DNA of 64,000 nucleotides from positions 241,539-305,538 of the forward strand of contig JAGTXO010000047.1 of NCBI GenBank assembly GCA_019448385.1, read 5' to 3'. The position numbers were made by a program, and so were the translations under genes. Source of the DNA: Diacronema lutheri. Taxonomy: Eukaryota; Haptophyta; Pavlovophyceae; Pavlovales; Pavlovaceae. Below the pieces are notes generated by a model. The model ran no database searches. It saw nothing but the letters and a program-made list of their open reading frames with translations, and had not been told where the DNA came from. Shown piece by piece: positions 37,109 to 62,990 of this stretch. Numbering within the stretch: the stretch's first letter is position 1; each line of letters opens with the position of its first letter.

Positions 37109-37570
37109 AGTCTGGGGCCGTGATCGTCGTGATCGTCGTGATCGGTCGGCGCGGCGCGAAGTGAAGTATAGATGGTCAAGCCAAATCCGATCAGGGGCAC
37201 GATCGCGCCCCGAGTGCAGCGCGGGCCGTTCGGAAGGACGTCCTTGTGAGGGAGCTCTTCGCGTTTGGCGAGCGGGGGAGCACGACGCGCAGCGTTGCTG
37301 CGGCGGCGTGCGGGCGGCGAGCAGCGGTCGGGCTGCTCGCGACGAGGCCGGAGCAGACGGCGCCGTGGCCGCCGGCGCAGGTGACGCGCGCCGACGAGCC
37401 GTAGCGAGCGTCCGTGATCCGCACGGCGGTTGGAGCGGGCCGGCTGGTGCGGCGCGCTCGGCCACGGGTGGCGGCGTGCACGGTCGTGCCGCGCGCGGCA
37501 CGCGTCGCCAGCCGCGCGCGACCTGGGCAGAGCCCGCAAAGCGTCGACCGCTGCGCGGCTCGGCCGTGCG
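37109..37570. other. Gap between Patched-type gene and Fanzor 3' end; where a guide-RNA scaffold would be sought
   Basis: No protein gene supported. It begins with three copies of GTGATCGTC (37120-37142). It contains an imperfect hairpin GGGGCACGATCGCGCCCC at 37195-37212 and palindromic GCCGCGCGCGGCAC near 37489. In known Fanzor and TnpB loci the guide RNA overlaps or follows the 3' end of the nuclease gene, which here is this gap. That is an inference from family knowledge; no RNA is visible from sequence alone. Short minus-strand frames here (for example one ending TIYTSLRA) are not recognised. Confidence 0.3.
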
Positions 37571-37757
37571 TCAACGCCGGCCGCGCTTCGGCCCGCGCGC
37601 GCTGCCGCCGCCGGCACTGGCGCTGGCAGCTCCGCGGGCGGGGGTGCGGGCGCGAGAGCCGCCGCCGCCACCGCCGCCGCGCCCGCCGCCGTCGTCGCCA
37701 CCGCCGTCGCCGCCGCCGCCTCCCCCGCCGTCATCGTCGTCGTCGCCGCCGCCGCCT

Positions 37758-37790
<33 letters not shown>

Positions 37791-40330
37791 CCGCCGCCGT
37801 CGCCGCTGCCATCGTCGTCGTCGTCGTCGTCGCCCTCGTCGTCGCCCTCGTCGTCGCCGTCGCACTCGTCGTCGCAGTCGTCGCCCTCGCCGTGCACCAT
37901 GCGCTCCTCACGCTCCCACACCTCGCCGCGCGCCCACCAGGCGAGCACGAGGGCAAAGCGCTCAGGCGTCGACGTGGTGTCGCGCCCGGCCGCGTGCGCC
38001 GCCATGTCGTGCACGTCGTAGAAGATGTTGCGCGCGGCGTTGTAGTCGCGGTGCACGGGCTTCTTGCCGCCGTTGCACGCCGGGCAGATGACGAGCGCGT
38101 GCACCGTGCGCGTGCCGCCCTTTGCCACGGGCAGGCGCGGGTTCTGCGCGAGCTCCGCGCCGCAGCGCTGCAGCCTGCCGCCCTTGGCGAGCCGCGGCAT
38201 CGAGCAGTGCATCGACGTGTACGGCTCGGGCACGAAGACGGCCGCGACGCCGCGCCGCCGCAGCTCGCGCAGCAGCCCCACCTGGAAGGCGGGCGGCGCG
38301 CCCTTGGGCTGCGCGCCCTTGTGGTCGCGCAGCCACTTGCCCACGCACACGAGCAGCCGGTCGCGCGTCACGCCGTCGACACAGTGCGCCGCGATGAGCG
38401 CCTCGGCGACGCGCGCCGCGTTGGACCGCCCGCCGCTGTCGCGCCGCCAGCGCTCCTTCCGGCGCGCCGGCGCGTCGTACACGTGCTCGGCGGCGCGCTC
38501 GCGCACCCGCGCGCTCTCGCGGTGGAAGGCGATGTATTTGCCCGCGTCGAGCACCTTGGCGCTGTGCGCCTCGCCAAGCCGCGCCTCGTCCGCCTCCACG
38601 CTGAACTCCTCGCCGCGCCCGTCGGTGCGCACGCGCCGCCGCGCCGCGTTGGTCTTGGCCGTCTCGCGCGCAAAGCCCGCGGCGCGCGCGCGCGCGCGCT
38701 GCGTGAACTGCCGCCAGACGGCCGCCCGCCCGACGTGCGCAGAGTAGGTGGTGATGTTGCCCATGTTCGGGTCGGCCGCGACGACGACCGCCGCCTCGAC
38801 GTCGATCGCCCGCCGCAGCTCGGAGCCGAGCGCGACGGCGATGCGCCCGTCCGGCCGGCGCCAGCGGTGCAGGACGCCCGAGCCGCCGGCCGGCGCCTGC
38901 GCCTTCGGCACGAGGACGGTCCCGACGGCGTGCACGGCGACGCCATCTGTCACCACCGACTTGACGGGCTGCCGGCCCGGGAGCGGCACGCGCGGCAGCG
39001 GCGCGAGGCCAACCCACGAGCGCCGCGCGTGCCACGGCAGATCGGCCGGCGGCCGCTCGCGCCCGGCGTAGTCGAAGACGCGGTTGGAGATGTCGAAGCG
39101 CGTCGCAAAGACCGCGTACCTGACGCGCACGTCCGACATCGGCGGGGTGTTGCCGTTTGTGCCTGTCCACTTGATCGGCTCGCCATCGTGGTCGCGCAGG
39201 TCCAGCGCCTTGAGCCGCGCGCGCAGCTCCTTGCGCTCGTCATCCGAAAGCGTCACCCAGATGGCGCTCGCGGCGAGGCGCACGTTGCGCGGCACCTGCG
39301 CGCAGCGCGCGGCGCGCGAGCGCGCGGGCGCGTGACCAACCTGGCCGCGGGGCGGCGCGCACGGCGGCGGCGCGCGCGCTTGGGCGCTCGGCGGCGGCAG
39401 CGGCAGCCACGCCTCGCGCGCACATTGTGCGTGCGCAGCGGCGCCACATTGTACCGCGGCGGCCGTCCGGTCAGCTGCGTGTGGATGTGCGCGAGCCGGC
39501 AGAGCAGCGCCTGCCCCTCGGCCACGTGCTGCAGGGTGCGGATCTGCACGAGGAAGTAGCGCGTCGTGTGCCGGTCGTAGTTCCACCTTTTCGTGGGCGT
39601 GCACTTGTAGTCGATCTTGTGGAGGACCATGTCGGGCAGGTGGCGGTCGAGCGCGGCGGGGCAGCCGACGCGCGCACCCTCCACGTCGCCGCGCAGCAGC
39701 CGCTCGCACAGCTCGCGCACGCGCGCGTTTCGCTGCATCTCGGGCAGCGCGACGAGCGCCTCGTCGCGCTCGACTGCCGCGCGGACGACGTCGCGGAGCA
39801 GCCCGTTCACGACGCGCGATGGATGCATCAGGCACGCGGTGGACACCTGCGTCGCCTCCGCCTCGAGGATCTCCGTGAGGCCCACCGCGCAGACGGGCTG
39901 GACGCCCTCGGCCATCTCGCCGACGGCGCGCGCCGTCGCCGCCTTGGTCTGCGCGGCGGCTTGCTCGGCGGGCTTGCCTCGGGGCGCTGCACCGTACGTG
40001 CTCTCGTCCTTGTGCCAGCCGATGGCCGAGAAGATCGCACGGACGGTTCCCTTGTCCATCGTGGTCGACGTGTGCACGCTGGTCGACGGGCCGCCCGACG
40101 CCGCGCCGACGGCCTGCGCGCTCGCCACCGCAGCCTCGTCGCGCACCACCTTGTTGATGACGCGGTACGCCTGTGTCGTGAGCCTGTGCACGGCCGCCGC
40201 GATGCGCCGCAGCTCCTTCCGCGCACCGGGCTGCGCCGTCACCGCCTGCGGCCCCGCGTTGAGCGTCGAGCGCTTGACCACGAAGCCCGGGAGCACGCTG
40301 ACGCGCGTGCGCGCCGTCGCGCCGCCGGCG
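37571..40330 (-). CDS. Fanzor-type (eukaryotic TnpB-like) RNA-guided nuclease domain
   Basis: Fanzors are eukaryotic relatives of TnpB that cut DNA guided by an element-encoded RNA. The N-terminal part, in segment C, runs from about 40330 (VVKRSTLNAG) through HPSRVVNGLLRDVVRAAV, VLHKIDYKCTPTK and YNVAPLRTHN. An intron at 39423-39296 (GTGCGC donor, CTGCGCGCAG acceptor) joins this to VPRNVRLAASAIW, restoring the PLR-x-x-x-VP junction typical of the family. The RuvC pieces follow: AADPNMGNITTYS (first Asp, about 38752-38783), FVPEPYTSMHCSM (Glu, about 38202-38237), and VICPACNGGKKPVHRDYNAA with RNIF (final Asp, about 38022-38105). All three catalytic acids are present. The zinc site is partly unusual: after TSMHC the expected second Cys two residues on is missing. 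The C-terminus is an Asp/Gly-rich tract of about 90 residues and a basic end (RGPKRGRR). Confidence 0.8.
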
Positions 40331-43300
40331 GCGCGCGCGCTCGGCGCAGCGGGCTCGTCCACGCGCGCGCGCTCGACGCCGCGCGCGCGGGGAACGCTCG
40401 GCGCGCGCGCGCCCGCGGCGTCGCGCGCGCTCGCGGCGGCACCCGCCGCGGCGCGCTTGCCCGCGGCGCCCGACTCGCCGTGCGCGCGAAGCGGCGCCGA
40501 CGCCAATGCCGACGCCGCGCCCGCGCCGCCGCTGCCGCTGCCCGATACGCCCGCGCGCCGCTTCTGCTCGTCGCGCGTCTTGCGGAACTGGGCGACGAGG
40601 TCCCTGCTCACGTTGGCCTCAGGCTCCCACGTGTCGGCGCTCTCGTCGTAGCCCCGCCACCTGATCCGGAACTGGAACGTCACCTTCTTGCCCGCCTTGC
40701 GGCGCTCGTCGACGACCGCCTCGACCTCGTACGTGCGCGCCTCCTCGTCGACGCTCGCGCCCGCCGCGCTCGCGCCCGTGTCTGGCCACCCAGCGACCGT
40801 GCCGCCCAGCCTCTCGGCGGCCGCGCGCAGCTGCCGCTCGCGCTGGGCGGCCGCGGCGCCTCGCGCGACCAGCGCGGGCAGCATGCCCGCGCCGCCCGCG
40901 AGGCCGTGCGCGCCGACGCTGGCGGTCATCAGCGCGTCGAGGCACGCGAACGTTGCGAGCGCACGCGCGCCATCGTCGCCGCCGCGCGGCTGCGAGCGCA
41001 CGACGGGCGATGGCCGCGGCTCCCCCTCGGCCGCGAGCAGCGGCCAGATCGCACTGGCCAGCGCGACGGCATGCGCGCCGACCGCGACGGCCACGTCCGC
41101 GTCGAGCGGCGCAAAGTCGTAGCGCACGAGCGCGGCCGGGCGCGAGTCGTCCGTCGGCCGGTCGGCGACGAGCAGCCCGACCGGGCGCGGCGGCTCGCCG
41201 GACGGCGCGGCGACGGGCACGCAGAGGAGCACGACGAGCAGGCGCGGCGTGCCGCCGAGCAGCGCGCGCGCGGCATCCGCCCCGTCGGCTCCGCCGCGCG
41301 CGGCCGCGGCGAGCAGCTCGGCCGCGCGCGTCGGGCCCAGCGCCGTGCGCGCGTCCTTGCGCGCGCGTGCGCGGGCCGTGTACGCGGCGCAGGCGTCGTC
41401 GAGCACCGCCGCGCTGGGCGCGGTGCCAGTCGTCGCCCACGCGCGCAGCGCGTCGCGCACCCGCGTGACGATCGCCTGGTCGACCGCCGCCTCGCCGGCA
41501 GCGTGCGCCGGCGCGCACGCCGGCGGTGCGGCGGCAGGCGCGAGCGCGGGCGCGCCGTCGGCGCCGTCAACGCCGACGGCGCCGTCGGCGCGCCGCCACG
41601 CGAGCTTCGCCTCGATCTGCTGCCGGACGGCGTGGCAGTGCCGGTCGATGCCGCGCGCGTCGTCGAGCGCGGCCAGCGCGTCCTCAGCGGCGGGACGGCC
41701 GCTCGCGTCCGCGACGGCCTGCAGGCAGAGCAGCGCGGCCGCACGCGCGTTGCACGCGCTCTGCGGCTCGGGCGCGAGCGCGAGCTCGAGCTCGAGCGGC
41801 GACGCGCCTCGCGCCGCGGCGATCGCGTCCATCAGCACGTCCAACCGCTGCACCAGCGCCCTGTGCGCGTCGCGCGGCGCGCCCGTCGACGGCGCGCGCG
41901 AGCGCGTCGCCAGGAGCCCGAGCGCGCGCGCCGGCGCGCCCGCCGGCGTGTGCAGCACGAGCAGCGCCGCGCCCGCCAAGCTCGCGTTGCGCGTGACGAG
42001 CGCGAAGATGCGCGTCGCCTCGTGCGCGCCCACCGACGCCCAGATCGCAGCGCGATCGGCGTCCGTCTGCGCGTCGCACAGGTCGCGCACGTCGTCCGGC
42101 GCGAGCAGCGCGCCGCCGCCGGCGGAGCGCGCGACGATCGCCCGCGCCTCCGCCACGAAGACGGCCTGCGGCAGGTCGGCGTGGCGCGCGTCGACGATGG
42201 CGCGCGTCGCGTGCACGCCGAGCTCCACGCCGCGGTAGAAGGCGCGCGCGTTGGCCGCGCGCGCGTGCGCCGGCCGTCCGTCCGCGTTGCGCCTCGCGCG
42301 CGCCTGCTTGCTCGTGCGCGCGAGGCCGTCGCGTGGCGGTGGCGGCAGCGTGGCGAGGAAGCGCGCGGCGGGCGGCGGCGCGCGCACGCCGCGCTGCCGC
42401 CGTGCGATGGCCGCGAGCCGCCGGCCCGCCGCGCTGCCGCCCGCGCCGACGTGCTGCCAGCGGTTGAGCGCCGCCGGTGGCGGCGGCGGCGGCGGCGCGG
42501 CGGCGGGCGGCGGCGCGACGGCGGGCGGCGGCGCGGCGGCGGGCGGCGGCGCGGCGGTGGGCGGCGGCGCGGCGGCGGGCGGCAGCGGCGGCGGCGCGGC
42601 GGCGACGGCAGCACCAGTCGGCTTGTCCGCCCACGCACCCGAGACGCTGTCCCAGGCCTTGCCCGGTGGCGCGCGCCCACGCGGCCGCGGGTGGCGGGCT
42701 CGAGCGGCGGGGGGCGGGCGGCCGGCGCGCCAGTCGAAGACAGGTGCAACCGTGGCGGCAGGCGCCGAGTGCCGCGCGTCGGTCACAGAGCGCGTGGTGC
42801 GCGCGGCGACCGTAGCACGCCTGGCGGGCGGGCGGTGAGCAGCGCCCGCCGGCGCGCCGGCGGGCGCGGCAGCCGGCGCGCCGGCGGGCGCGGCCGCCTC
42901 GAGCCCGGCGGAGGCGCCGCGCTTGCGCTTGCGCGTGCCGCCGCGCGTGCGCCTGCGCGCGCGCCCGCCGCGCGCCGGTTCGGCCTGCGCGTCGCCAGCC
43001 GCGTCGCCGGCCGCGTCGCCGCGCCGCACGTAGACGACCGCGAACGCCTCCTCGCCGGTCCCGTCGACGCCGCCGCGCGCGCGGCGCAGGGCCGACCGCC
43101 ACTGCAGCCGCCGCGCGCGGCCGGGCTCGCACGCAAACCAGCGCCCACCGCGCCTGACGACGGCCACAAAGTCGTCGTCGCGCCGCCCGCGCCGGCGCGT
43201 GCGCAGCAGCACGCACTGCACGTCGAGCCAGCCCTCGTGCCATTTGGCCGTGCTGGGGGCGACGCGAATCGACTGCGGGAGCTCGACGCCAAAGCCGGCG

Positions 43301-46300
43301 AGGCGCACGATGTGCGCGACGATGACGCTCGAAATGGCGGGGGCGCTCGACGGGTCGCCCGCTGCAGCGAGCACCGCCCCGCCCCAGTGCTCACGCGTGA
43401 CGCAATCCGCGTCCTCGACGTGCACGTGCGCCACGCTCGCGCCGAGCTGGTGCAGCAACGCGCAGATGTCGGCGTCGACCGTCCTCTCCTCCTCGGCCGC
43501 CTCGGCCGTGCCGCGGGCGGCGGCGTCGCCCGCCGGCTGCCCGAGGTACGCGATCGCCCGCTCGACGGCCGCGCCCTCCGCACGCGCTGCGCTGGCGATC
43601 GCCGCATTGCCGACGGGCGCGCGCAGCGCCGCGATCGCGTCTTGCAACGCCGTCGCGCCGCCCGTCGCCGCCGCCGCCGTCACCGCCGCCGCGCTCGCGG
43701 TGCCGTGCGCGACGGCGTGCAGCGCGGCGGCGCGCGCGGCGGGGATGCGCCCGTCCAGCGCGAGCACGAGCGGCGGCCCGGCCGGCGTCTGCTGCCGCCG
43801 GTGCCGCCGGCTCGCAGCCGGGTGGTCGGCGCGCGCGCGCTCGAGCCGCGCGCGCCGCTCGACGACGCGCGCCCAGAAGGCCTGCACCCTCGGCTGCGCG
43901 AATGCAAGCCAGCCGGCGCCGCGCGTCACGACGTGCACGACGATCCGGTCCTCGTGCCTGAGGTACTGCACATAGAGCGCTTTGCTCACGCCGAGGACGT
44001 GCATGCCGAGCTGCAGCTGATCGCGGTGCGGCTGCGGCGGCCCGTCCTCGTGCGCCGTGGCGCCCGCCTTGGTGAGCGTCTTCACCTCGACGAGGACCTG
44101 CTCGTTGTTTTCGGGGAGGATGGCGAGCCCGTCCGGCGAGAAGGCGAACGGCGCGCTCTTGTCGTGCGGGTCCGCACGCACCATCGGCAGGTTGCACACG
44201 ACGGTGATGCCGTACGCGGCCGCCAGCTTGCGCAGCGCGACGGCCTCGCCGAGGATGCCCGCGGTCGTCGCCTTGGTCCGCACCTCGCGCCGCCGCCGGT
44301 GCACGTACTCGTCGGTGAGCGTCTCGTGCGCGACGCCGGCGTTGTCGTTCACGACGTCGCCAACCTTGCTGCCCGTGACCTCCTCCCATCGCTCGTCGTG
44401 CCAGCGCGGGCTGCGCTGCGCGGGCGCGCCCGCGCCGACGGCGTCGAGCACGCGGCGCAGCGCTGTGCCGTCGGGCGCAGCAGGCACGCGCGCGCGGTCC
44501 TGGGCCTCGCGAGCGTCGAGGACGCAGCCCGTAGTGGAATCTTGGGGTAGGTCGAGCTTGCTCGCCTCGCCGTAGCGGCTCTCCAGCTGGCGCGGTGCGT
44601 CGGCAGGGCCGCCGTCCGTGCGCGCACCCGACGCGCCCGCCAGTGCACGGGGCGCAGCGTCCGAGGCGCCCGCCGCGCCCGCGCCGCCGCCAATCGCGCC
44701 AGCGCACGCGCGCGCCGCGACCTGCGGACGGCCAGCCGCAGGGACCTCGTCCGCTCGGCCGGCCGCTGCGTCGGCCGTCCGCTTGGCCACCTCGCGCACG
44801 TCTCCGAGCGCGAGCGTGGCTGGCGCCGTCCAGCTCCCGTTGCGTTTGTCCCAAAATTTGAGCAGCCCGCCAAGGAAGGGCGTGCCCGTCGGGCGGTCCT
44901 CGGGCACCTCCGCCAGGATCGCGTCGACGCGCAGCGCGGCCGCCACATCGCAAAACGCGCGCGCGGCGCGCGCCATCCGCTCGGCGCGCGCGCCGCCGTC
45001 GTCCGCCGCGCGGCGGATGGCGTGGCTCACGTGCGCGACGCGGAGCGAGACGACGGCGTGCGCCGGCGCGCCGGCGCCCGTGCCGAGCGTGTGCCGCCGG
45101 ATGGCCAGCTGCCCATCGCCCATGCGCGGCGGCAGCGACGCGCACGCCGCGATGGTCGTCTTGCCGGCCGCGCTGTCGCACAGCCAGCTCGCCTCGCCGC
45201 CGCCCGCAAACTCAAAGGTCGCGAAGCCCTCGCGGCCGAAAAGCGCGACGAAGTGGTCGAGCACCGCCTTGTTGATCGCGCGCGCCGCCGGCCGCGTCGA
45301 TGCGCCGCGGGCAGCGCCACCCGCCGCGCCGCGCGCATCGCTGCACGTCGCAGGGCAGGTGCAGCCGGACGCGCGCACGCCGTCCGACCGCGTCCGCGGC
45401 AGCTCGAGCTCGCGCACCTTGGGGCAGAACCAGAGCGGGTTGGACGCCTCGAGGCACAGCACGACGAGCCGCCCGTCCGTGCCGGCCAGCGCGCGCGCGT
45501 CGCGCAGCAGCTCGACGGCGAGCTCGGACGTCGCCGCGTGCACCGCCGGCTCGCCCGTCGCGCGGTCGGGCGGGAAGAGGCCGCCGCCGACGAGCGGGCT
45601 GGGGCAGCGGCCGAGCATCACGAGCAGCGGCGGCGGCGGCGTCTGCGGCGCCTGCTGCCCGACCGCAGCCGCCGTCAGCCCGGCCAGGTCGGAGCTCGTG
45701 CGGAGGGCCTTGAGCGCGACGCGCGAGCCGGTGCCCGCCTGCTCGGAAAACGTTGCGAGCATGGCGCACGTGCTCGCCCTCGCGCCGCACTGCCAGCTGA
45801 CGCGCGCGAGGAGGCCTTCCAGCGTGTCGTTTTTGCGCGGCCGCGTGACCGCGTCGAGCGCCGCCGGGCCGAGCTGGAGGCTGCCGGGCGTGACGCACAG
45901 CACCGCCTCGTGGTAGGCGCGCAGCAGCTCCCTCGGCAGCTGCTCGGCGGGCGTCGCCGCCTGCCCGCCCACCCACCGCACACCGTGGCCGCCGTCGCCC
46001 GCGCCCGCGAGCCGCACCGCCGGCCCGCCCGTGATCGCCGAGGTCGGTGGCGTGCCGAGCGCGTCGACGAGCGCGCGCACGGGCGCGACACGCCTGCGCG
46101 CAGCGTCCGCGCCGACGGCGAGCGCGGCGATCTGAGCGCCCTCCCATGCGCGCTCCCTCGCGTCGTCCCGCGCGGCCGCCGGCGCGGCGCCCGGCCGCGC
46201 GCCGGGCGGCACCGCGCACGCCGCCGCGACGACCTCCGCGCGCGCGCCGGCGGCGTCGGGCGCGTGCAGCTGCGCGAGCGCGCCAAAGAGCGCGGCGGCC

Positions 46301-48113
46301 GAGCGGTAGCGGCCGTGCGCCGCGACGAGCGCGTAGAGCACGCGCAGCGCGGTCACGCCCGCCTGGTCGGGCGCGTCGTCAGCGATGCGCTCGACCTCCC
46401 ACGTGCGCGTGGGCGGCGGGCTGCCGTCGGCCGGGTCCGGACGCAGCGCCCACGCGCGCTCGACGATCGCGTTGAACACGTCGCGCGCGGCGCCCTCGTC
46501 AAACTCGGCGGCGCCCGCCGCGTGCGCGCACCACCCGTGCACGCGCGACGTGGGCGCGTCCACGGCGCGCTGCACGACGAGCACCGCCGGCCGGTCGACG
46601 CAGCCGAGGCTCACCGCCGCGTGCTTGCCCTCGAGCAGCGCCGCCGCCGCAGCCTCGACCAAGGCGTCATCAGGCGCGTCGCCGACGACGACGGCACAGC
46701 CGTCGCCGTACTCGGCCTGCATCGCGGCGACGCACGACGCGACAAAGTCGCCGCCCGCGGCCGCCGCGTGTCGCGCCGCCAGCATCCGGCGCGCGATGGC
46801 AAGCCAGACGTACTCGGCCGGCGCGCGCGCGGCGCGCGCGCGAGGCACGCCGGCCGCGCCGCGTGCGCCAGCGCGTGCGCCTCCAGCGGCCGCAACGGCC
46901 GAGGCGGCTGGAGCGGCGGTGAGCGTGCGCCGCGCGCGCTTCGCCGGCCGCGCGATGGGCGATGCACCCGCCGTCGCACCGCCCGCAGCAGCCGGTGCGG
47001 CCGCCACAGCGCCCGCCGCAACGCCACTCGTCACGACGCCCGTGGCGGGCGGCGCGGCGTCGGACGCGGCCGCCTCGACGGGCGTCGCGCAACTACCGCC
47101 AGCGGTCGCGGACGCGCCCGGCGACGCGTCGGCGAGGAGGTGGCGCAGCACGCCGCGCGCGAGCGCGACTCGCACGGCGAGCGTCAGCGCGCGCAGGCGG
47201 TCGGAAGGCGAGGCGTCGCGCTCGGCGTCGGCGGACGTGGCGGCTGCAGGCGGGGCGGCGGGCGGCACGGCGGCGGACTGGGCGGCCGCCGGCGCAATCT
47301 CGTCGGCCTTGGCCAGCCAGACGAGCCCGGCGACTGCGAGCACGACGCTGTACGCGCCGACATCGTCACCCGCAACGCGCGCCAGCCGGGCGTGGGCGTC
47401 GGCCTCGGACACGGCGACGTGGAAGAGCACGTCGTCGCGGGCAGCTTGCTCGGCAAACTGACGCAGCTGCTTGGCCATCGTCACGCCGGCGACGCACGCC
47501 TCGCCCGCCTCTGCCTCGACCTGCTCGTCCTGGCCGATGGCGGACGCGCCGGCCTCGGCGCCAGCGTCGAGCGTCCGGCGGCGCTCGAGGGCAAAGCCAC
47601 GCACACAGACGCTCTGGAGGCCGCCGAGCGCGCCCGCCTTCTCGTGCAGCGCGCACGACAGCTCGACCACCGAGTCCACGCGCCTCGCGGCGGCGCCCCC
47701 CCCGCTCGCCGCGCGTGGCCGCGCGCACGACGAACACCGTGAATTGCGCGCGCTTCGCCGCGCGCGCCGACGCGCACGCGTGCTTCAGGAGCCGGCAAAG
47801 CGCGGGCCTTTGCGCCGCTGCGCCCCGCGTGCACAGCAGCAGTTGGCCGCGCTCGTCGCCCAGCTCCTGCTCGACGGCGGCCTCGAGCGCGTCGTCCGTC
47901 AAATCGCCGTGCTCCGTCGAGGCGAGCGCGCGCGCAGCCGCGAGCGCCAGCTCGCCTGCGCCCGCGCGCCGCCGGCGGCGCGCACCGGCGGGCGCGTGCG
48001 GCGCCGACGCGTGTGACGACGCCGCCGCGTCCGCGCGCGCACACGCGGCGCGCAACGCCTCACGCGCCGAGGCGGCCGCGCGCGCCCTGGGCGCGAGCTT
48101 CAAGAATGTGCGC

Positions 48114-48203
<90 letters not shown>

Positions 48204-51200
48204 TCGCCCGCGTCGCCGGCCGGCGGCGGCGGTGGCGGCGGTGGCGGCGCGGCCACGGCGGCGGCAGCAGCGGCGGCGGCGGCGGTGGCGGCGGCGGCGG
48301 CGCCCAGCGCGGGCGGCGGCGGCGTGGCGGCGGCGGTGGCGGCGGCGGTGACGCCAGCGGCGGCCTTGGCGCCGCGCGTCTGCGGCGGCGTTTCGGCGCG
48401 ATCGGGGCTGCCCCCGCCACGCACTGCGCTCGTGCCCGCGCAGACGCCGCCCGGCGCACGATCGCTGGCCGCGCCGGTCAGCGCGACGCGGAGGCGCTCG
48501 CCGACAGCGTACATGTCCGCCACGCTGAACGTGCGCGGCGCGGACGAGCAGCCCGCCGCGGCGAGCGCGTCGTTGAGTGCGCCCACTATCGCGAGGCCGC
48601 ACGTCGCGCCACGCTGCGCCGCCTCGTCGAGCAGCCGCGCGCGGCGCACGCGCGAAATGTCGAGACCCGCCGCGTGCAGCGTGGCAGTTATCGCCGTGGC
48701 GAGCACGAGCGCCCGCCTGCAGGGCGACGCGAGCGTGTCGACGAGCACCGCGTCGTAGCGATGCTCGCCCGCGCGCGCGACGCGCACAAGGCGCAACGCG
48801 GTGAAATGGCCGGAGGCGAGCTGCGCGCCGTCGTCACCGCCCGCGCCGCCGCGCTCGTCCGACGGGCTCCACACGCCGATGACAGCCTGCGTCGTCGCCT
48901 CGCTGCGCAGGCGGTGCAGCAGCGCGGCGCGCTCGGCGCCGTCCTGAAACACCGCGGGTTGCGCGGCGAGCGGCACGTGGCAGACATGCCCGCCGCCGGC
49001 CTGCCCGTGCACGCGCAGCACGACCTCGCAGCACGCGTCGACGGTTGAGGCGAGCATGTCGCCGCTGGCGATGCGCTCCACCTCTGCCTGCGGGAGGCCG
49101 GCGCTCGCGGCGGCGGCGGCCAGCCGGCGCGCAGCCGCGTCGCCCGCCCACGCAAGCAGCGCCGAGTTGGCGGGTTGGAGGGGAAGCTCCAGGGCGGCTG
49201 GTTCGGTGGTGGTAGCCTCGTTGGCAACGGGCACGTTGGCGGTGCGCACGTTGGCGGCGGGCGCTGCGGCGATGGCTGGTGGGGCGGAAGACACGCCCGC
49301 GGCGGCAGGCGCGGACGCGACAGCGGGAGCGGCTAGTGGCGCGGGGAAAACGCCGTCGGTGGCAGGCGCGGAGGCGAATGCAGGAGCAACTAGTGGGGCG
49401 GGGAAAACGCTGTCGGAGGCGGCCTGGAGGGCGGCAGCGGCAGCGGCTAGTGGAGCGGGGAAAACGGCGTCGGAGGCGGCCTGGAGGGCGGCATCGGCAG
49501 CGGCTAGTGGGGCGGAAGACACGCCCGCGGCGGCAGGCGCGGACGCGACAGCGGGAGCGGCTAGTGGCGCGGGGAAAACGCCGTCGGTGGCAGGCGCGGA
49601 GGCGAATGCAGGAGCAACTAGTGGGGCGGGAAAAACGCTGTCGGAGGCGGCCTGGAGGGCGGCAGCGGCAGCGGCTAGTGGAGCGGGGAAAACGGCGTCG
49701 GAGGCGGCCTGGAGGGCGGCATCGGCAGCGGCTAGTGGGGCGGGGAAAACGCCGTCGGAGGCGGCCTGGAAGGCGGCAGCGGCAGCGACTAGTGGGGCGG
49801 AAGACACGCCCGCGGCGGCAGGCGCGGACGCGACAGCGGGAGCGGCTAGTGGCGCGGGGAAAACGCCGTCGGTGGCAGGCGCGGAGGCGAATGCAGGAGC
49901 AACTAGTGGGGCGGGAAAATCGGCGGCAGGCGCGAAGGCGGATGCAGGAGCGGCTAGTGCGGCGGGGAAAACACCGTCGGCGGCAGGCGCGAAGGCGGAT
50001 GCAGCAGCGCCCAGTGGGGCGCAGAACACACCGTCGACGGTAGGCGCCGAGACGGCAGCAGCAGCGGCTAGTGGGGCGCACAAAACACCGTCGGCGGCAG
50101 GCGCGAAGGCGACAGCAGCAGTGGCTAGTGGAGCGGAGGCGCAGGGCCACGCGCGCGCCAGCCGTGCAAGCCCAAGCCGCGCGCGAGCGACGCACGCGCC
50201 GATGGCCGAGGCGGCGGCGCAGGCCACGACGTGGCATGGCACCGGTGTGGCCAGCCGCTCGCGGGTGTGCACGTCGAGCCGCGCCCCACGCCAAGAGCGG
50301 CGGCGCGCTGAACGGAGGCGCACGACCCCGATCGATCCGCCCGCGCACGCGCGCGCCGGCTCAGTGTGGCCAACGCGCGCCGCTATGCGAGGCGCGCGCG
50401 CGATAACGGCGGCTGTCGGCCGTGGCGTGCGCGTGGCGGCGCCGTGGCGACGGGCGCGGCACACGAGCCGCTCGGGCGCGCCGCCGCCGCGCGGCACGAT
50501 GTCGAGCAGCACGGTCACGCCGCGCGCGCGCGCGACCGCCGTGCACGCGAGCCGCACGGGCAGCGGCGGCCCGTCCGGGCGCGCGAGCGCCGCCACCTCG
50601 GCGTCGGTGAGGCTGTGCAGCTCGCGGCGCGCGCGCGCGAACGCGGCTATGTCCGCGCGCAGCTCCGCGTCCGTGCCGAGCGCGGCGCGCGCGTGCACGG
50701 GGAGCGACGCGCGCAGCGCGTGGAGCACGCCGCCGCGCGCGCCGCGCGGCGCCGGCGCGCGCTCGCGCTCAGCGCGCGCGGCGCGCGTGAGCTCGCGCAC
50801 CGCGCGCGCGAGATTGCGCCGCGCGGCCGCGACGGGAGGGCTAGGTGCGCGCGCGCCGGTTGTAGCGCGGCCGCGCCGAGTTGAGGGGCGGCGGACGCGG
50901 TGCGTACGCCGCGGCGCGGCCCGCGCGCCAAAAGGCCGGCGGCGGGCGCAGCTCCGTCGCGTCGACCGCGGCCGCGAGCGCGCCGAGCGCGGCGTCGCTG
51001 TCGCCCGCCGCGTCGGCCGCGTCGACGAGCACGAAGAGCGCGCCGAGCGCGCGCGACGCGGCCGCCTGCGCGGCGGTGGGGCGGGCGCAGGCAGCGACGC
51101 ATGCGGCCGCCATGCCGCGCGCCGCGGCGAACACCGGTGACGTGACGGCCGCGCCGATGGCAACGGCGGCGGCGGCGACGGTGGAGGCGGTAGCGCCGGC

Positions 51201-54200
51201 GATGGAGGTGGCAGCGGCGGCGGCGCTTGCCATCGCGCGGCGCGCGAGACGCGAGGCGCCACCGACCGCCGCAGCCGCAGCGCGCGCTGCGCGCGCGCCG
51301 GTGGCGCGCATCGTCGCCGCGCCAGGCGCCGCCGCGCCGATGCCGCCGGCGCCCGCGCCGTCGCCCCTCTCGGCCGTGCAGGGCTCCGATGACGGGCCCG
51401 GCGTGCGCTGGCGCGTGATGCGCGCGCCGAGGCGCGCGCTCCGCGCCGCGCGGCCGGCGACGTCGAGGACGCGCCGTGCGCGCGCCGCGCAGAGGCCGCG
51501 CGCGCGCGGCGGCGCACCGACAGGCGCCGAGCGCCGCGGCGCGCACGCCGGCGCGTCGCTGTCGGGTTGCGCAGCGCGCGCGCGGGAACTCGGCGCGGCG
51601 TGTGCGGGCGGCGGGCGCGCGCCCGCGCGGCGCAGAGGCGCGAGGCGCCGGCCGCAGACGAGGCGTGTGCGCGGCCAGGACGGTGAGGGCCGCAGGGCGC
51701 CGTCGACGTCGCGCATCGGCGGGCCGCGAGCGCGCCGCGCAGCCGTGCGGCGCGCACAAGGCGCTCGGCGGCGCGCGCGCCGCACGGCGCGCGCGGCGGC
51801 GCGCACGCCAGCGACGGCTGCGGCCACGCCGCGCGCCAACACGGCCGCGGCGTGCGCCATCGCACCGAGCACGGCGCGTGGCGCGCCGAGCAAGCGCAGC
51901 AAGCGCGACGCCGTCGCGCGCGCCGGCGCACCGTGTGCAGGGGCCTCGCCAGCGCCAGCACCGACGCCGCCATCGCCGCAGCCGCAGGTGGCGTCGCCGC
52001 CGCCGCAGGCGTCGCGACGAACGCCGCCGCCGCCGAAACAATCGCCGCACACGTCGCCGCCGACGTTGCCACCCCAGCCGCCGTTGCGTGCGCAGGTGGC
52101 TGCGGCGCGTGCGTGCGGGAGGCGTGCCGTGCGGCGCGCTTCACACGGGCTGCGCGACGCGAGCGACGCCGCCGGGGTCCCCGCTGCGCCAGGCGCGCCG
52201 TGCGCGCCAGCCTCGCCGGCCTCGCCGGCGCGCGGTCGCGCGCTCGCCTCGACGTGGCCGCCTCCGCCGCCATCGCCGCCGTCGAACCGGGCGGCGGAGG
52301 GCTGCCGCTCGAACCGCTCGTCGGCGTCGGCCGCCACCGCCGCCTCGCGCTCCGCCGCCGCGGCGGCCGCACGGCGCGCGTGGCGGAGCGCGCGGCCGCC
52401 GTCCGCTGCGCGGCGTGGCGGCGCGGGCGCCGCCTTCGGCGCGCGCGGCCCCTCGGCGCGCTCGCGGAGCACGGCGAGCGGCGTGCCCGTGGCGACGCTC
52501 GCGCAGACGCGCCGCAAGGCGGCGCTTACGCACGCGTGGACGACGCGCGCCGTCCGCTTGTCGGCGGCGCGCGCGGCGCGGCGCGCGGCCTTGGCGGCGG
52601 CCTTTTTGGCGCGCCTCCGCTCCGCCTGCTCCGACAGCGCGCGCGCCTGGCGCTCGGCTGCGAGCGCGTCCTCGGGCGAAACGGTCGGCCTCGGCGGCCG
52701 CGCGCGCGCGCTGCGACGCTGCGCGCTGCGGCGGTCGGACGGCGGCTGCCGCGGCGGCGAGGACGGCGGGCGCGAGCTCGGCGTGGGCGACCAATCGCCG
52801 CTGACGGTTGCGAGCGGCGCAAACGGGTTGTCGTCCCCGCACCCCGCGGCGTGCGACAGTGCACGCGGCGTCGGGCGCCGGCCGACCGCTGGCGGGCCCC
52901 ACTCGGACGGCGGCTCCGAGGGCGAGCGCGCCGTCGGCGCCGCGCGTTGCGCGGCCGGCGGCGCCTCCCGGTCCAGCGCCGCCTGCTCTCTCGCCGCGGC
53001 CTGCTCGTCACCCTCCGGCACGCCACGCGGCGCGAGCACCGCGGTGGCGCAGCGCGTCGCGTTGAGCAACGCCGCCTCCATCTGCCGCACGCTGGCCTTG
53101 GCGCACGCCACACCCTGTCTCGCCCGGCGCAGCGCCTCGTGCGCGCGGCGCACTTCCGCGTCGGCATCTTCGCGCATGCCAAAGTGCGCCTGTTGCAGCC
53201 GCAGGTCCGCAGGGCGCCCCTGCGCGCGAGGGGCACGGGCGCGGCGGCGCGCAGGTGACGGAGCTGGCGCGCCGTTCTGCGCTGCGCGCACGCCAATCGA
53301 CGGGCGCGCGCGCGGCGGGGCGCGCGCGCGCGCGCGCGCGCGCGCTGCCTACCCAGCCGCCGGCCGGCTCGCGCGAGCGCGCCAGCTGCTCCGCCGCCTC
53401 GGCGTCGAGCACGCGCTGCTGCGCCTCCTCCTCGCCCAGTGCAGCGAGGTGCAGCCGGCGGGCTGCCTTGCGGCAGTTGCCCTCCGCCTTGCCCACGGCC
53501 TTGCGCGCCGCGTCGACGGGGTCGTCGTTGGCTCTGGCGCGCCTGCGCTTGCCCTTGTCGGCGGGCGGCGGCTCGGCGCGCTGCAGCGTGCCGAGCGCGT
53601 CGTCGGCTCCGCGCGCGGCCGCCCGCGGGCGGCGGGCCCCAAAAAGCGCACCGGTCGCCGTGCGCGCCGCGCAAGCAACGACCAGCGCTGACATGCCGGC
53701 GAAGACCGCACCGCCCAGCGCCACGGTTGCCACGATGCGCAGCGTCCCGTGCGCAGGCCGCGCTGCCTCCGCCGCTTTGGCGGCCTCGCGCGCGCGCGCA
53801 TCGGCGGCTCTCATCTCGTGCAGCAGCCCGGCCGCGCCGCTCGCGCCGTCGCGGCCGCGCGCGAGCTCGCACAGCACCGCCGCCGCGCGCCGCGTGGGCT
53901 CGCGCGCGAGCAGCTGCGCGCCGCCGTCGGGGCGCAGCTTCTCAACGAACTCGACAAACGTCGCGTCGCGCCAGAGGGACATGCGGAAGGCCCTGTGCAC
54001 CGCCCCCTCGTGCTCGCGCATCCGCCGTGCCGCCCGCCTGCCGTCGCGCGCGTGCGCGTGCGCGGCCGCGTCGACTCCCGCGACGCCGCGCTGCGCGTCG
54101 CGCGCGGCCGACGACGGCGCCGCCGCGCTGCCCGCCAAGGGCGCCGCAGCGGCGACGCGCGCGTGCGGAGCGACGGGATCGCCGGCGGCCGGCGGCTCGG

Positions 54201-57027
54201 CGCGCTGCGGCGTGCCGTTTGCTCCGCGCGCGGCCGTCCCGGGGGAGATGGCCGCGATGGCGCCGCCAGCCGCGCCGCGCGCCAGCCACGCGCATAGGCT
54301 GCCGACGAGCTCGCCGAGACCCCCGACGGTCGCCGCGGCGGCGAGTGCGCCGGGCTTGCCGGCCGACAGCGGCTCGCGAGCGTCGTCGTCGCAGCCGCCG
54401 GCACCCGTCTTGGCGAGTGCGTCGCGCTCGCCCTCGACGCCCGCCACGACCGCCGCCCCTCCGTCGTCCGCCGCGCCGGCCGCGCGCGCGGCCGGGCGCA
54501 GAGGAGGCGTGCCGGTGCAGCCGTCGCCGCTCGTCTTCGCCGTTTCCTCCACTTTGGTCACTTCGTCGCCACCTGCGCCATCTCCGACGCCGGGGCCCTT
54601 GGTCACGCTTGCCGCCATGCGCGCCGTGCCCGCCGGCCAGCCCGCCGACTGCTCGAGCGCGGCGGCGAGCGGCGCGACGCGCGTCGACTCGGGCGCGCTC
54701 TCGTCATCGGGCTCGAGCGCGTTGTGCAGGCGCGCGAGCGCGCGCTCGACGGCCGCGGCGCCACTGCCGGGGGCGCGGCTCGCCGCGCGCACCGCGCGCC
54801 GCCAGGCCGGCGCGAACATGAGCGCCGGCTCGAGCGCCGCGAGCGCGCGCGCCTCGCGCGCGTCGCTCGCGCCGAGGCGCGGCGGCACGCGCGCGGCTCC
54901 GCGCGGCGCGGTGCCTCGGAAGCGTGGGCTCAGCGTGTAGGCGAGGTGCTGCGGCACGCCGCGCGCCTCCGCGCGCGCGCGTCCGTCCTCGACCTCGCGC
55001 CGCGCCTTCGCGATCGCCGGCGTGGCGCGCGCGAGCCAGTCGGGGTCGGCGGGCAGGTGGATCACGACGAGAATCGGCGCCCAGTCCAGCCGCGGGTTCT
55101 TGTGACGGTCGGGCACGACCCACACGAGCAGCACCGTGCCCTCCGCGCCGCACGCCGCCTCGTAGATCCTGGGCTGCGAGCGCCAATCGGGCCTGACGCG
55201 CAGCGCCCGCGCGTGGTCGATGGCGGCGGCGCGGTCGCCATTGAAGTGAACCGTCGTCACCTCGCCGATGACGGACCGGCCGGACCGCCAGCAGAACACC
55301 GCGTCCGCCGACCCGCCGGCGATGGCCGCGAGCGATTCGGGCGCGGCGAGCCGCGGCAAGCCCTCGAAGGCGGCAAAGTCCTCGTGCGCATTGTACACGC
55401 CGCCCCAGCCGTCGTGCGCGTACGCGCGCGCGGCCGCTCGTACCGCGCGCGGCTGGTTCTCCACGCCCGACGTCATGTGCCATGTCGTCCCCGCGAAGCC
55501 GGGCTCGCCCAGCTCGGCCCGCACGACGGTACCGTACCCCGCGCCCTGCGTCGGGGCGGCGAGGTGGTGCATGCCCGCGCCGGTCACGCCCTCCGTGCGC
55601 TGCCGCGTGACGATCGTGCCCGTCGCGTGCGCGAAAAGCGTGTCGACCACGGCGGGCGCGCGCCCGCTGTTCGCCCGTAGCCGCGCCCTGCCCGCTTTTA
55701 GCTGCTCGGGGTCCTTGGCGTCGTACACGCGCGCGTCCGCGTCGCCCTCATCAGGCGCAGTGTAGACGCAGCGGCGTTCGAGCGGCGCCGAGCCACCGCC
55801 GTCCGCCGCCGCCGGCGAGGTTGGCGCCGCGCCCGCCGCCACCGCGCTCGTCGCCGCCGTGCCCGTCGCCACCGCCGCAGCCGCCGCGCCCGCGGGGTCG
55901 TCGTCCCCGTCCTCCGCGCCCTCCCCGTCGTCAGCGGTGGTGGCGTCGCCATCGTCCCCGTCGCCCTCGCCCCCGCCGAGGCTGCTGAATGGTCGGGGCC
56001 CCCACGCCGAGGCGGCGCGCCGCTGCGGCGCACGCGGCGGTGGCGCTCGCGACGGCGGCCTTGGCGCCGCCGCGCCGCGCGGCCTGGCCGCCGTCGACAG
56101 CGCGCGGCCTGCAGCGCCCGTGAGCGCGTCGAGCGCGGCCGTGCGTGCGATGCGGTCGTCGGGCGCGCGCAGCGCCGCCTCGACGGCCTGCAGCAGCCCG
56201 TCGGGCGCGGATCCGCCGACACTGGCATCGCACGCCTCGGCGAGCCGCGCGGCCTCGGCGAGCCGCGCGGCCTCGCGGGTGAACGGGCCGAAGCGCCTGG
56301 CGCGGTCGCCGAGCAGAGCGCCGATGGCGGCGCGGAGCGTGCGCGCGCGGGTCTCCTCGTACGCGGCCGTCGTGAGGCGCGCGAGGCGCGCGTCCAAAGC
56401 CTTCTTGATGTCGACAAGGACACTCGCGCGGCGGCCGTAGAGCGTCGATGCGCTCGCCACGACCTCGGCCGCGACTGTTGCCGCGGCGAAGCAACACGCG
56501 GCCCCACTCTGCGGGGGCGCCTTGAAGGCATCGATGGGCGGCGCTGTTCTGCCGATGCGCTGCGCAAGCTTCTTGATGAGCACGCCGGCCGCCGTGGCGT
56601 ACGCCGATTCGCCGTTGCCCAAGGTGCGCGAATCGGCGAGCAGGGCGAGCGCGGCGCCGGGCGGCGCGCCGCGCTGCGCGGGCGGCGCGAGGAGCAGGTA
56701 CGCCGCCGTCCAGTGCACGAGGCCGCTGGACGCGCGGAGGCAGAGCGGTAGCACGACCACGAGCACCTGCCCAAACCGGTCCGCATCCGCGCATGCTTTG
56801 CGCAGGTTGCGCAGCGCCACCTTGAGCGCATGCTGCGAGCACCCCGTGTCGCCCACCCTAACCCTGCTCGTGCCGAAATCCGCGTAACGCAGCAGGGCGA
56901 TGAGGCAAGTGGATGGGACCACGTGGGGGTGGGTATCTCCCGGCGACAGAATGGTGCTGAGGGCCAGCGAGAAACTGTCCGAGCCGCCCCGCCCGCCGGG
57001 CAAAGCGTCCTTCACGGAGTCCTCCAT
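37571..57027 (-). CDS. Giant mobile-element polyprotein-like gene: peptidases, nucleases, chromodomain, Fanzor
   Basis: Coding-like frames run without a convincing new start from the ATG at 57027 (MEDSVKDALPGG) to the TGA at 37571. Segment A covers about 57027-53353. A phase-0 intron at 53352-53220 (donor GTAGGC, acceptor GCGCAG) joins EPAGGW to GRPADLRLQQ of segment B1. B1 changes to B2 near 50,840-50,900, with a plausible GTACGC donor and CACCTAG acceptor. B2 changes to segment C at 47,690-47,760 beside a G8 tract. C is open from there to 39,424. A phase-0 intron at 39423-39296 joins C to the Fanzor catalytic part. The total is roughly 6,000 codons. Domains are listed separately. I see no DDE transposase, integrase, polymerase or capsid gene, so the transposition class is unknown. 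It may be several adjacent genes rather than one; transcript data would decide. Low-complexity Ala/Pro/Arg linkers separate the domains. Confidence 0.55.
40556..40733 (-). other. Chromodomain, in frame about 90 codons before the Fanzor region
   Basis: The segment reads YEVEAVVDERRKAGKKVTFQ, then FRIRWRGYDESADTWEPEAN and VSRDLVAQF. It has the aromatic cage positions (Tyr, Trp, Trp) and the WEPE-N signature of methyl-lysine-binding chromodomains. Some retrotransposons carry a chromodomain to steer integration to marked chromatin. It shares an uninterrupted frame with both the YqaJ domain and the N-terminal Fanzor region. Confidence 0.88.
43840..44412 (-). other. YqaJ/lambda-exonuclease-type nuclease domain
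   Basis: About 190 residues beginning near SPRWHDERWEEVTGS. Conserved elements appear in order: GILGEAVALRKLAAAYGI (Glu), FAFSPDGLAILPE (Asp), VLVEVKTLTKAG (E-x-K) and HRDQLQLGMHVLGVSKALYV (Q-x-x-G-M), the core of the PD-(D/E)XK YqaJ family. These are 5'-3' exonucleases of viral recombination systems that also occur in some large eukaryotic transposons. The catalytic residues look intact. Confidence 0.82.
47330..47900 (-). other. Degenerate XPG/FEN1-like region spanning the B2/C frame junction
   Basis: On the B2 side the frame reads LLKHACASARAAKRAQFTVF. On the C side it reads LQSVCVRGFALERRRTLDAG and later VLFHVAVSEADAHARLARVA. The EADAxLA-LA string matches the XPG-I region, and the preceding Arg-rich stretch fits the end of XPG-N. 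The acidic DSDLL motif expected next is absent (LAVAGLVWL), so activity is doubtful. The fold seems to continue across the frame change, which supports one protein. Confidence 0.35.
48113..48205 (-). repeat. GGC trinucleotide run (polyalanine in segment B2)
   Basis: About 31 consecutive GGC/GCG triplets, reading as a polyalanine run of about 30 residues on the minus strand between the Ulp1-like peptidase and TFLKLAPRARAA. The surrounding 150 bp is also GGC/GGT-rich. Confidence 0.9.
48520..48960 (-). other. Ulp1-like (C48/CE-clan) cysteine peptidase domain, segment B2
   Basis: The order of candidate catalytic residues fits the Ulp1/adenain fold: His in GHFTALRLVR (about 48793-48822), Asp in AVLVDTLASP (about 48722-48750), Gln and Cys in QRGATCGLAIVGALNDAL (about 48567-48620). 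Such peptidases process SUMO or viral polyproteins and are common in large eukaryotic DNA transposons. The assignment rests on motif order and spacing, not overall similarity. Confidence 0.55.
49262..50135 (-). repeat. In-frame coding minisatellite, about 13 units of 57-75 bp
   Basis: Tandem units each start with GCTAGTGG-G-GCGG-A and end in GCGGCAGGCGCG- or GCGGCCTGGAGG-type sequence. A higher-order block of about 240 bp (49,262-49,505 against 49,503-49,745) is repeated almost exactly. Read on the minus strand in the B2 frame they give PLAA/PLVAP-type Ala/Pro repeats such as ALQAASDSVFPAPL and ASAPATDGVFPAPLAAP. The reading frame is kept throughout. Confidence 0.9.
55000..55620 (-). other. 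Possible restriction-nuclease-like (PD-(D/E)XK) region, segment A
   Basis: A conserved-looking globular stretch: HMTSGVENQPRAVRAAA, VYNAHEDFAAFEGLP, SADAVFCWRSGRSVIGEVTT, VLLVWVVPDRHKNPRLDWAP. The D-x(10)-G-E-V-T spacing resembles the Asp and E-x-K of PD-(D/E)XK nucleases, but the Lys is Thr. I cannot exclude an unrelated fold. Confidence 0.25.
56390..56880 (-). other. Ulp1-like cysteine peptidase domain at the N-terminus of segment A
   Basis: Motif order His (GLVHWTAAYLLLAP, about 56687-56722), Asp (ALLADSRTL, about 56625-56650), Gln and Cys (APPQSGAACCFAAATVAAEV, about 56473-56520) fits the Ulp1/C48 catalytic set with all residues present. Upstream lies a Trp-poor globular lead-in (STCLIALLRYADFG). 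As in segment B2, the call rests on motifs and their spacing. Confidence 0.55.
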
Positions 57028-59742: not shown

Positions 59743-59948
59743 GCGCACGTGCACGTGCGCGCCACTGGTCACATTTGAGCGTCCGTGCTCGCCCACAGCG
59801 TCGCCATCCACAAGATGCGCGCTGGAGCCATCCAAGCAGGGCTCTGCCTGCTCGGCTTCCGCAAGGCAATTTGGGCCGCGGACAGCGGACAGCGGACGGC
59901 GTGCGCGTGCGAGGTGCGAAAGGAGGAAGAAGGTAGGGAGAGTTGTGT

Positions 59949-59979
<31 letters not shown>

Positions 59980-60199
59980 GGGGGGCACAGCGGCCGCCGG
60001 AGACGAGGACGCACTCACCGCTGTTGGCAATGCGCGCGTCACGGAGACAACTTGGCGGGCCTCGCACGCAGCTGGGCCGATCGCCGCCGTAGAGATGTCT
60101 GCAGCCGTCTCCGCGATGCCGATCGTCGCATCTGTTGGCACCGCTGCCATCTGCCGCACCCGCGGCCAGGCTGCCGGCAAGGTCGGCGCGTCGGGCTCC

Positions 60200-61420: not shown

Positions 61421-61424
61421 GCGC

Positions 61425-62332: not shown

Positions 62333-62363
<31 letters not shown>

Positions 62364-62990
62364 GGTGTGGTGGGGGGGGGGGGGGGGGGCGCGTTGTGCG
62401 CACTTGGCGCGCGAGTAGTGCGAGTTGCGGGCGAGCCTCGTCGCCCACGGAGCCCGCCCCCGGCTCGGGCGGCGCGCCGCCTGCTCGCCGGGTCGCGCAC
62501 CGCCGTCGCCGCCGCTGCGCACGTTGCCCAGCTGCCGGCAGGCGGCAGGCGGCGGCGACGGGCGGCGGCGGCGGCTGCGGCTGCGGCGCGAGCGCGACGC
62601 CGGGCGGCGGCAGCGCCGACGGCACGCGCGTCAGCGGCGACCCACGCGGCGGCGGGCAGCGCGCCAGCGTGAGGCCCCTGCGCGCCGGCCGCATTGGGCG
62701 CCGCCCTGCGCCGCCCTAGAAGGGCGCGCAGGTACGCGGGCCGGTCGCGCGGCGCGCGGTGCTGGCGAGCACCCGAACGGCTGGCGCGTCCGGCGCGAGC
62801 GGCGCGGCGGGCGTCGCGCCGGCGGGTGCTGGCCAGCACCGCGCGCCGGCGGGCGCCCGCCGCCAGCCGCGCCGCCCGCCGCCGGCGCCGCGCGCGCCGT
62901 CCGCGCCCGCCGCCACCGCGCGCCGCTCGCCGCGCATTTCGCGCGCGGCGGCGACGGCGGGCCGCGGCGAGCGCCGCCGCCGCCGCCTCG
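61425..62990. other. No supported gene; contains TATA-like site and poly-G tracts
   Basis: Open frames on both strands are Arg/Ala-rich and lack motifs. An AT-rich site ATATAAATTCAT lies at about 62309-62320 beside two plus-strand G runs (62332-62361 and 62372-62389). From 62,440 to 62,990 the sequence is GCC/GCG-rich with no recognisable coding signal. Confidence 0.35.

Follow-up and report, generated by a model that had tools for sequence, protein, structure and literature searches.

Here we show that a 64,000-nucleotide stretch of the Diacronema lutheri genome (C97:241539-305538 of an assembly of 43,492,796 bases in 103 contigs; hereafter the window) carries on its minus strand the 3' part of a high-copy Fanzor1-bearing DNA transposon of about 31 kb. 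Our preferred reading, to which we give a probability of roughly 0.55, is that this element encodes one giant exonuclease-chromodomain-Fanzor1 protein that serves guided cutting, resection and copying. Both the fusion of the exonuclease, chromodomain and Fanzor in one gene and the mobility of the element are well supported; a guide RNA, DNA cleavage, attachment to chromatin, end resection and a role in retention or copying are inferred. A preliminary description of the same sequence had treated a locus of 10 kb as the unit, which proves instead to be a mobile element present in more than 100 copies.

The fused gene is represented in the window by a minus-strand frame of 2,843 codons that contains the exonuclease, the chromodomain and the Fanzor N-terminus without interruption and in the order originally described; its openness stands, and its length, first put at about 8.3 kb, is 8.5 kb here and considerably more in most other copies. 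Shuffling of the window gave open frames of at most 976 codons (mononucleotide, 100 shuffles) and 1,298 codons (first-order Markov, 100 shuffles). Given a GC content of 79% and an antisense frame that is itself open for 1,778 codons, frame openness by itself is weak evidence. Methionine is absent from frame residues 2301-2576, an interval that includes the chromodomain (2350-2402) and the beginning of the Fanzor N-terminus (from about residue 2495), so that a separate Fanzor start would truncate the Fanzor N-terminus, barring a hidden splice. Compared with an intact copy on contig C28 (C28:435771-455770), that of the window differs upstream by two indels that shift the frame, as well as by in-frame changes, and the two indels limit its frame to 2,843 codons. 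The codon-position order typical of coding sequence (GC3 > GC1 > GC2) holds in each interval examined over codons 1201-4513 of the intact C28 frame, linker included; both intervals at codons 1001-1220 fail it, and five of the ten earlier ones are only partly ordered. At the 146 chromodomain matches assigned to the element, the frame is open for at least 4,000 codons in 102, for 2,800-3,999 codons in 16, and for fewer in 28. In an eighth copy, additional to the seven compared below, the long frame spans 4,611 codons and its protein is 98% identical. A tandem repeat with a period of 57 bp also lies within the giant frame (window 49219-50253) and encodes Ala-rich repeats; at this repeat the window copy exceeds the C28 copy by 57 and 513 bases.

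Of the three Pfam profiles by which the domains were to be placed, PF00385 (chromodomain) and PF07282 (Fanzor) scored above threshold, while PF09588 (YqaJ) fell below its cut-off and the exonuclease was placed through PHROG 434. The exonuclease piece matched PHROG 434 (RecE-like exonuclease) with an E-value of 4.7e-17 and the lambda-exonuclease family model TIGR03033 with an E-value of 4.1e-7 (30.2 bits, under the model cut-off of 68.05). PF09588, with a cut-off of 22, gave 15.8 bits in the whole frame and 20.9 bits in the excised piece; scanned against the genome, it exceeded the threshold in one of 150 scored candidates, which lies in a copy on C71 whose chromodomain match has an equal open-frame length. 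The nuclease residues E, D, E-x-K and Q, which we take to be the catalytic ones, are all kept (GILGEAV, FSPDGL, LVEVKT, HRDQLQLG). The YqaJ-type nuclease with SPDG and EVKT motifs proposed at the outset is upheld, except that the motif given as Q-x-x-G-M actually reads Q-x-G-M (QLGM). A structure prediction of the exonuclease piece had a pLDDT of 38.5 and was left unused. Exonucleases of the RecE type trim back DNA ends in preparation for recombination by annealing.

The chromodomain reported in the frame was recovered with PF00385 (E 3.6e-12) and by comparison with PDB chains, where it matched CDYL (E 4.4e-11) and HP1 (E 1.3e-9). Chromodomains bind methyl-lysine histone tails, and in the alignment to HP1 three of three aromatic cage positions (presumably Y, W and Y) are retained. 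Because the cage residues and the nuclease E, D, E-x-K and Q are all kept, neither the chromodomain nor the nuclease is visibly dead.

The Fanzor part is divided between the giant frame and a second exon. Its N-terminal half alone had no Pfam match. In exon 2, PF07282 (TNB/zinc ribbon) scored 27.3-28.3 bits against a cut-off of 26.3, the NCBIfam TnpB model scored 14.4 bits (far under its cut-off of 100), and a search of exon 2 against PDB gave no significant match (Cas12f1, E 0.25). Published work gives for Fanzors the C-terminal pattern D-X(125,275)-[TS][TS]xx-[C4 zinc finger]-X(5,50)-RD (PMC3627910), and lists Ealt (a rearranged RuvC2 glutamate), a TDG in the WED domain, and a near-exclusive DPG in RuvC1 as Fanzor features (PMC10711439). 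The spliced protein satisfies the C-terminal pattern, with D470, a gap of 184, TSMHC, four cysteines (C-x13-C and CxxC) and RD. Ealt is present as E652, six residues ahead of the first zinc cysteine (C659), and a TDG at residue 411, aligned with the TDG of a second Fanzor family, probably lies in the WED domain. As the preliminary description had claimed, the RuvC D, E and D are present in exon 2, and so are all the zinc cysteines.

The phase-0 intron that had been proposed to restore PLRTHN-VPRNVRL is likewise borne out, both by its GT-AG boundaries and by the occurrence of the joined peptide in the D. lutheri gene model KFE25_006464, which matches about 71 residues around the end of the Fanzor N-terminal half. 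Since the gene models were built with BRAKER2 and RNA-seq evidence (PMC8379373), this match supports the intron, though not a transcript from the window locus. KFE25_006464 lies at C69:1672449-1675608; its first exon apparently comes from the Fanzor of an element copy and its later exons encode SAM domains. Residues 1-71 match the element copy on C69, and the later exons follow in the same orientation at a distance of about 2.3 kb; the pairing with that copy is positional, because many other copies match these residues about equally. Either a host gene has captured element sequence here, or the gene model itself is chimeric.

The second Fanzor family of this genome is 26% identical to the fused Fanzor (E 5e-9), scores 38.2 bits with PF07282 and is marginally similar to SpuFz1 (E 0.18). 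It is separate from the element, and its members are L001, L002, L003, L005, L006, L007 and L072. By eye, DPG and Ealt occur in L001, L002, L003, L005 and L006, and TDG in the longer ones; L007 is a fragment. Open frames in this family extend to 1,779 codons, and in L072 (C9:378500-386499) a frame of 1,681 codons (138-5180) gave no Pfam domain beyond that of the Fanzor.

Mobility of the element is indicated by its boundaries, copy number and sequence identity. Homology breaks sharply at window position 37166 in seven of seven fetched internal copies, the flanks of which are all different, and a 5' terminus was found in L031 and is common to L029 and L027. The element on C3 starts at 413833 and ends with its contig at 444901 (as located from the position of the TNB domain), corresponding to about 31.07 kb. 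Spacing between PIF1 and the chromodomain was 22,879-22,913 bp in 13 picked plus-strand copies, a count that excluded minus-strand copies and two pairs seen to differ (C11, 24,078 bp; C76, 17,980 bp). The copy number is at least 146, this being the number of element matches among 150 scored chromodomain matches (260 candidates); the other four were dropped for scores and frames unlike those of the element. Six copies, including that of the window, are 99.1-99.7% identical over about 19 kb, and a seventh, on C11, is about 95% identical; with six of seven compared copies at least 99.1% alike, the element was recently mobile. If all 146 copies were full length they would make up 10.4% of the assembly of a strain (NIVA-4/92; 103 contigs, 73.25% GC) whose genome paper gives 22.9% repeats and, in its main text, contains no word starting 'transpos' (PMC8379373). 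Some copies are shorter: the one at C28:57762 is internally deleted, and a copy on C9 is without the helicase segment. In the former (L020, C28:57762-67761), the deletion joins window 44725 to 63731 at 8733-8744, where 12 bases match both sides.

The termini were compared in 22 stretches from the 5' end, two of which (C69a, C30y) could not be aligned, and in 27 from the 3' end, all of which could. The 3' end reads ACCATCTATAC in 25 of 27, the exceptions (C9a, C4m) differing by a one-base loss or two substitutions; in 19 of the 27, the next base is a G. The 20 aligned 5' ends read [C/G/T]TATATA, one variable base, and GGCGCGG, with an outer base of C (16 copies), G (three) or T (one), so that a short TATA repeat stands at both ends of the element. 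With the exception of C9c, whose flanks share GCGAGGACTATAT, no long target duplication was seen by eye in 17 copies with both flanks readable. An abundant short repeat ending in GTAAGCGCCGTTAGTAT (L074-L084 and others; 40 of 279 candidates scored) also occurs in this genome, and the Fanzor element has repeatedly inserted at its end. Unoccupied points read GTTAGTA in 12 of 12 cases and GTTAGTAT in 10 (11 loci, from the 40 scored of 279 candidates); occupied points read GTTAG+TATATA (C75, C4v), GTTAGTG+TATATA (C75x) and GTTAC+TATATA (C3). As the unoccupied repeat copies read GTTAGTA, TATA is favoured as part of the target. A 4-bp TATA duplication together with very short inverted repeats is favoured, not proven, by these alignments, among which no allelic empty site was seen. 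An association with telomeres was considered and rejected: several contigs do start at or near the 3' end, but others start at a distance fitting the 5' end, so that the assembly seems to have broken at the edges of repeats. A long array of 5-bp period adjoins the C3 element (L031:547-981).

The remaining element genes and the searches for an enzyme of transposition are as follows. Near the 5' end lies a PIF1-like helicase gene, identified in L031 with PF05970 (E 1.8e-24) and Pif1_2B (E 5.3e-13); positions 7650-9999 of L031 align with window 64000-61600 at 96.7% identity. Pfam scans of the larger open reading frames (ORFs) of the element revealed no transposase, and the genome-wide search covered only Helitron Rep, DDE_Tnp_4, resolvase and phage integrase. 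Helitron_like_N had one match genome-wide, on C63, and a canonical Helitron was rejected, as the ends are not TC...CTRR and Rep is absent at the copy number of the element. DDE_Tnp_4 gave 14 matches among 15 candidates genome-wide and the tyrosine recombinase model PF00589, which is general and not Crypton-specific, matched 16 of 16 candidates, neither being at element copy number. Nothing in this genome matched the serine recombinase model PF00239, for which the control was positive in 10 of 14 genomes, and the element lacks this mark of IS607-type (Fanzor2) elements. Reverse transcriptase was likewise absent from the Pfam matches of the scanned ORFs.

Table 1. Features of the element within the window (window coordinates; residue positions of exon 2 located by script).
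Feature	Position	Strand	Remarks
Element portion in window	37166..64000	minus (coding strand)	runs past window; stopped by end of contig C97
Element 3' terminus	37166..37175	minus	reads CCATCTATAC; 25/27 aligned 3' ends exact
Subterminal near-palindrome, hairpin near 3' end	37194..37211	.	GGGGCACGATCGCGCCCC on plus strand; folded
Fanzor exon 2	37571..39295	minus	PF07282
Exon 2, TDG	38942-38950	minus	
Exon 2, RuvC D	38771-38773	minus	
Exon 2, RuvC E	38225-38227	minus	
Exon 2, RuvC D	38045-38047	minus	
Exon 2, zinc-finger cysteines	38204-38206, 38162-38164, 38084-38086, 38075-38077	minus	
Exon 2, end	37571-37573 (stop)	minus	acidic/Gly-rich tail before stop
Intron	39296..39423	minus	GT-AG, phase 0, 128 nt; GTGCGC...GCGCAG; from sequence
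Fanzor N-terminal half	39424..40302	minus	VSVLPGFVVK... to PLRTHN; frame continuous
Chromodomain, HP1/CDYL-like	40579..40731	minus	PF00385, 46.4 bits, E 3.6e-12
RecE/YqaJ/lambda-exonuclease-like nuclease	43852..44427	minus	FSPDG, VEVKT, QLGM motifs; PHROG 434
Exonuclease + chromodomain + Fanzor N-terminus frame	39253-47784	minus	no interruption; 2,843 codons, 8.5 kb
Upstream continuation of giant frame	47366..53348	minus	C28 copy open for 4,513 codons; window copy split (47366-52525 + 50841-53348)
Further frame, 1,345 codons	53008..57045	minus	coding-like GC pattern; profile searches matched no family
PIF1-like helicase, C-terminal part	63345..64000	minus	approximate limits, transferred from L031; remainder beyond contig end

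Two presumed host genes lie beside the insertion, both judged by eye: a frame at window 31170-32372 (minus strand) which we take to be porphobilinogen-synthase-like, and a gene at 33470-37164 (plus strand), ending just before 37166, which we take to encode a Patched/RND-transporter-like protein.

Under the preferred reading, a guide RNA made from the 3' end of the element and the adjoining flank would direct the Fanzor to matching sites, such as empty ones; the chromodomain would keep the protein on methyl-lysine chromatin, the likely location of element copies; the exonuclease would resect the cut ends; and repair would copy from an element-bearing template, whereby the element would be maintained and spread. 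In TnpB and Fanzor systems, a right-end RNA with a flank-derived guide directs cleavage beside a motif (PMC10711439), and the position of the Fanzor at the 3' end of the element is the expected place for such an RNA. Chromatin-targeted cutting and coupled end processing, as suggested in the preliminary description, are putative functions read from the neighbourhood of the domains.

Several observations weigh against this reading. In the Fanzor, RuvC1 reads ADPN, so that D and P are kept and G is replaced by N in the DPG motif, and the leading pair of zinc-finger cysteines is spaced C-x13-C rather than CxxC; in L031, the copy that was read, the reading frame of the helicase is broken. The ratio of nonsynonymous to synonymous substitution (dN/dS) is about 0.92 among six young copies, compared with 1.04 and 1.13 in shifted frames; the more diverged C11 copy was left out of this main count, and the ratio is 0.85 when it is added and 1.02 against a second subfamily. 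The recent copies are therefore without clear purifying selection, and they do not demonstrate that the fusion is under selection. The 3'-end region is no more RNA-stable than shuffled sequence (z -0.79 to -1.46), and no transcript spanning the entire gene came to light. Outside this genome, the searches turned up a single relative of the fused protein, a fragment of exon 2 in ENA: the Fanzor homologue search returned two proteins, the D. lutheri gene model and this 570-aa ENA protein, which covers 61% of the query at 98% identity, and no homologues were found of the exonuclease piece or of frame region 1080-2790. A tblastn search of phage and plasmid sequences with the frame as query and a search of IMG/VR with six peptide patterns from Fanzor exon 2 gave no match.

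Of the alternatives, the one that survives best, which we hold to be possible and still on the unlikely side, is that an unrecognised transposase moves the element, with the chromodomain steering integration and the Fanzor and exonuclease being accessory or no longer active. The near-neutral substitution among copies and the DPN in place of DPG point this way, as do the frequent capture of Fanzor1 by DNA transposons (PMC3627910) and the known occurrence of chromodomains on Gypsy integrases (PMC12477816). This is opposed by the retention of the RuvC D-E-D, the zinc cysteines and the nuclease E-D-ExK-Q, and by the lack of its enzyme, given that DDE_Tnp_4, resolvase and phage-integrase matches (14, 0 and 16) do not approach element copy number. 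It is unlikely that the giant frame is a polyprotein that is cut apart, leaving exonuclease, chromodomain and Fanzor to act separately; such a reading would account for the great length and the low-complexity Ala/Gly/Pro linkers, and cysteine-protease-like motifs (GHFTAL...ATCGLA) can be picked out upstream, by eye only and with no profile support, yet no protease family was found in the pieces scanned with Pfam, PHROGs and NCBIfam. Somewhat more doubtful is a self-contained cycle of cutting, resection and copying that spreads the element without a conventional transposase, in which RNA-guided breaks made by a chromatin-tethered Fanzor would be followed by RecE-type resection and PIF1-driven copying at TATA sites.

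We consider it improbable that separate end-to-end genes merely appear fused because stops are rare at such a GC content. Long antisense frames such as that noted above and possible internal introns speak for this; on the other side, there is no start codon from the chromodomain to the Fanzor N-terminus, the coding pattern is unbroken over the linker, none of the 200 shuffles came near the real frame length, and the frame is open for at least 4,000 codons in most copies. An endogenous virus in place of a transposon is highly improbable, since, even though YqaJ is mentioned in the literature on large algal and giant viruses and large DNA viruses carry Fanzors (PMC3627910), no capsid, polymerase or packaging family was found in the ORFs scanned with Pfam, the one PHROG 'virion structural protein' match (E 6.7e-8) sits on the exonuclease piece itself, the termini are constant with short TATA repeats, and IMG/VR contained no match to any of the six peptide patterns from the Fanzor.

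Chromatin and exonuclease modules are added by hand to RNA-guided nucleases by engineers. A fusion of this hand-made kind seems to occur naturally, in an element present in more than 100 copies. Two ideas consequently become testable, namely (i) that histone marks steer the RNA-guided nucleases of eukaryotic transposons, and (ii) that resection is coupled to cutting.

With known Fanzor-bearing elements, such as that of Spizellomyces SpuFz1 (PMC10432273), the D. lutheri element has in common a Fanzor gene in a repeated element with defined ends, the C-terminal D-x-TSxxC4-RD motif, and the location of the Fanzor at the element end, where the right-end guide RNAs of the family arise (PMC10711439); it differs in that its Fanzor forms part of a fusion with a chromodomain and an exonuclease, within an element of about 31 kb. 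The terms 'chromodomain' and 'YqaJ' do not occur in the main texts of PMC10432273, PMC10711439 and PMC3627910. ISL2EU elements of the PHIS superfamily are likewise DNA transposons encoding a protein with a YqaJ exonuclease domain; they are about 4.8 kb long, have a DDE/THAP transposase and AT target duplications, and carry YqaJ on its own ORF (PMC4482050), whereas the D. lutheri element shows no DDE_Tnp_4 at its copy number, has TATA ends, is several times longer and carries YqaJ fused. Chromodomain-bearing Gypsy elements (chromoviruses and Gypsy lineages of Ectocarpus) also join a chromodomain to a DNA-processing enzyme, which is the Pol integrase (PMC12477816) in place of the RNA-guided nuclease of D. 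lutheri. Helitron and Helitron2 share with the D. lutheri element a PIF1-like helicase and subterminal palindromes, and Fanzor1 is known in a Chlamydomonas Helitron2 (PMC3627910); the D. lutheri element departs from Helitrons in the single Helitron_like_N match on C63, in ends other than TC...CTRR, and in TATA repeats at both ends. The giant KDZ and EnSpm elements of Ectocarpus are likewise about 30 kb long with a notable genome share (PMC12477816), and 'Fanzor' does not occur in the main text of that paper. Within the limited and mostly open-access literature on Fanzor, chromodomain, YqaJ and transposons that we consulted, the original statement that no described element has this combination held. 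Every part has a precedent among transposons, and what is new against that literature is their union in one gene, the size of the element and its copy number.

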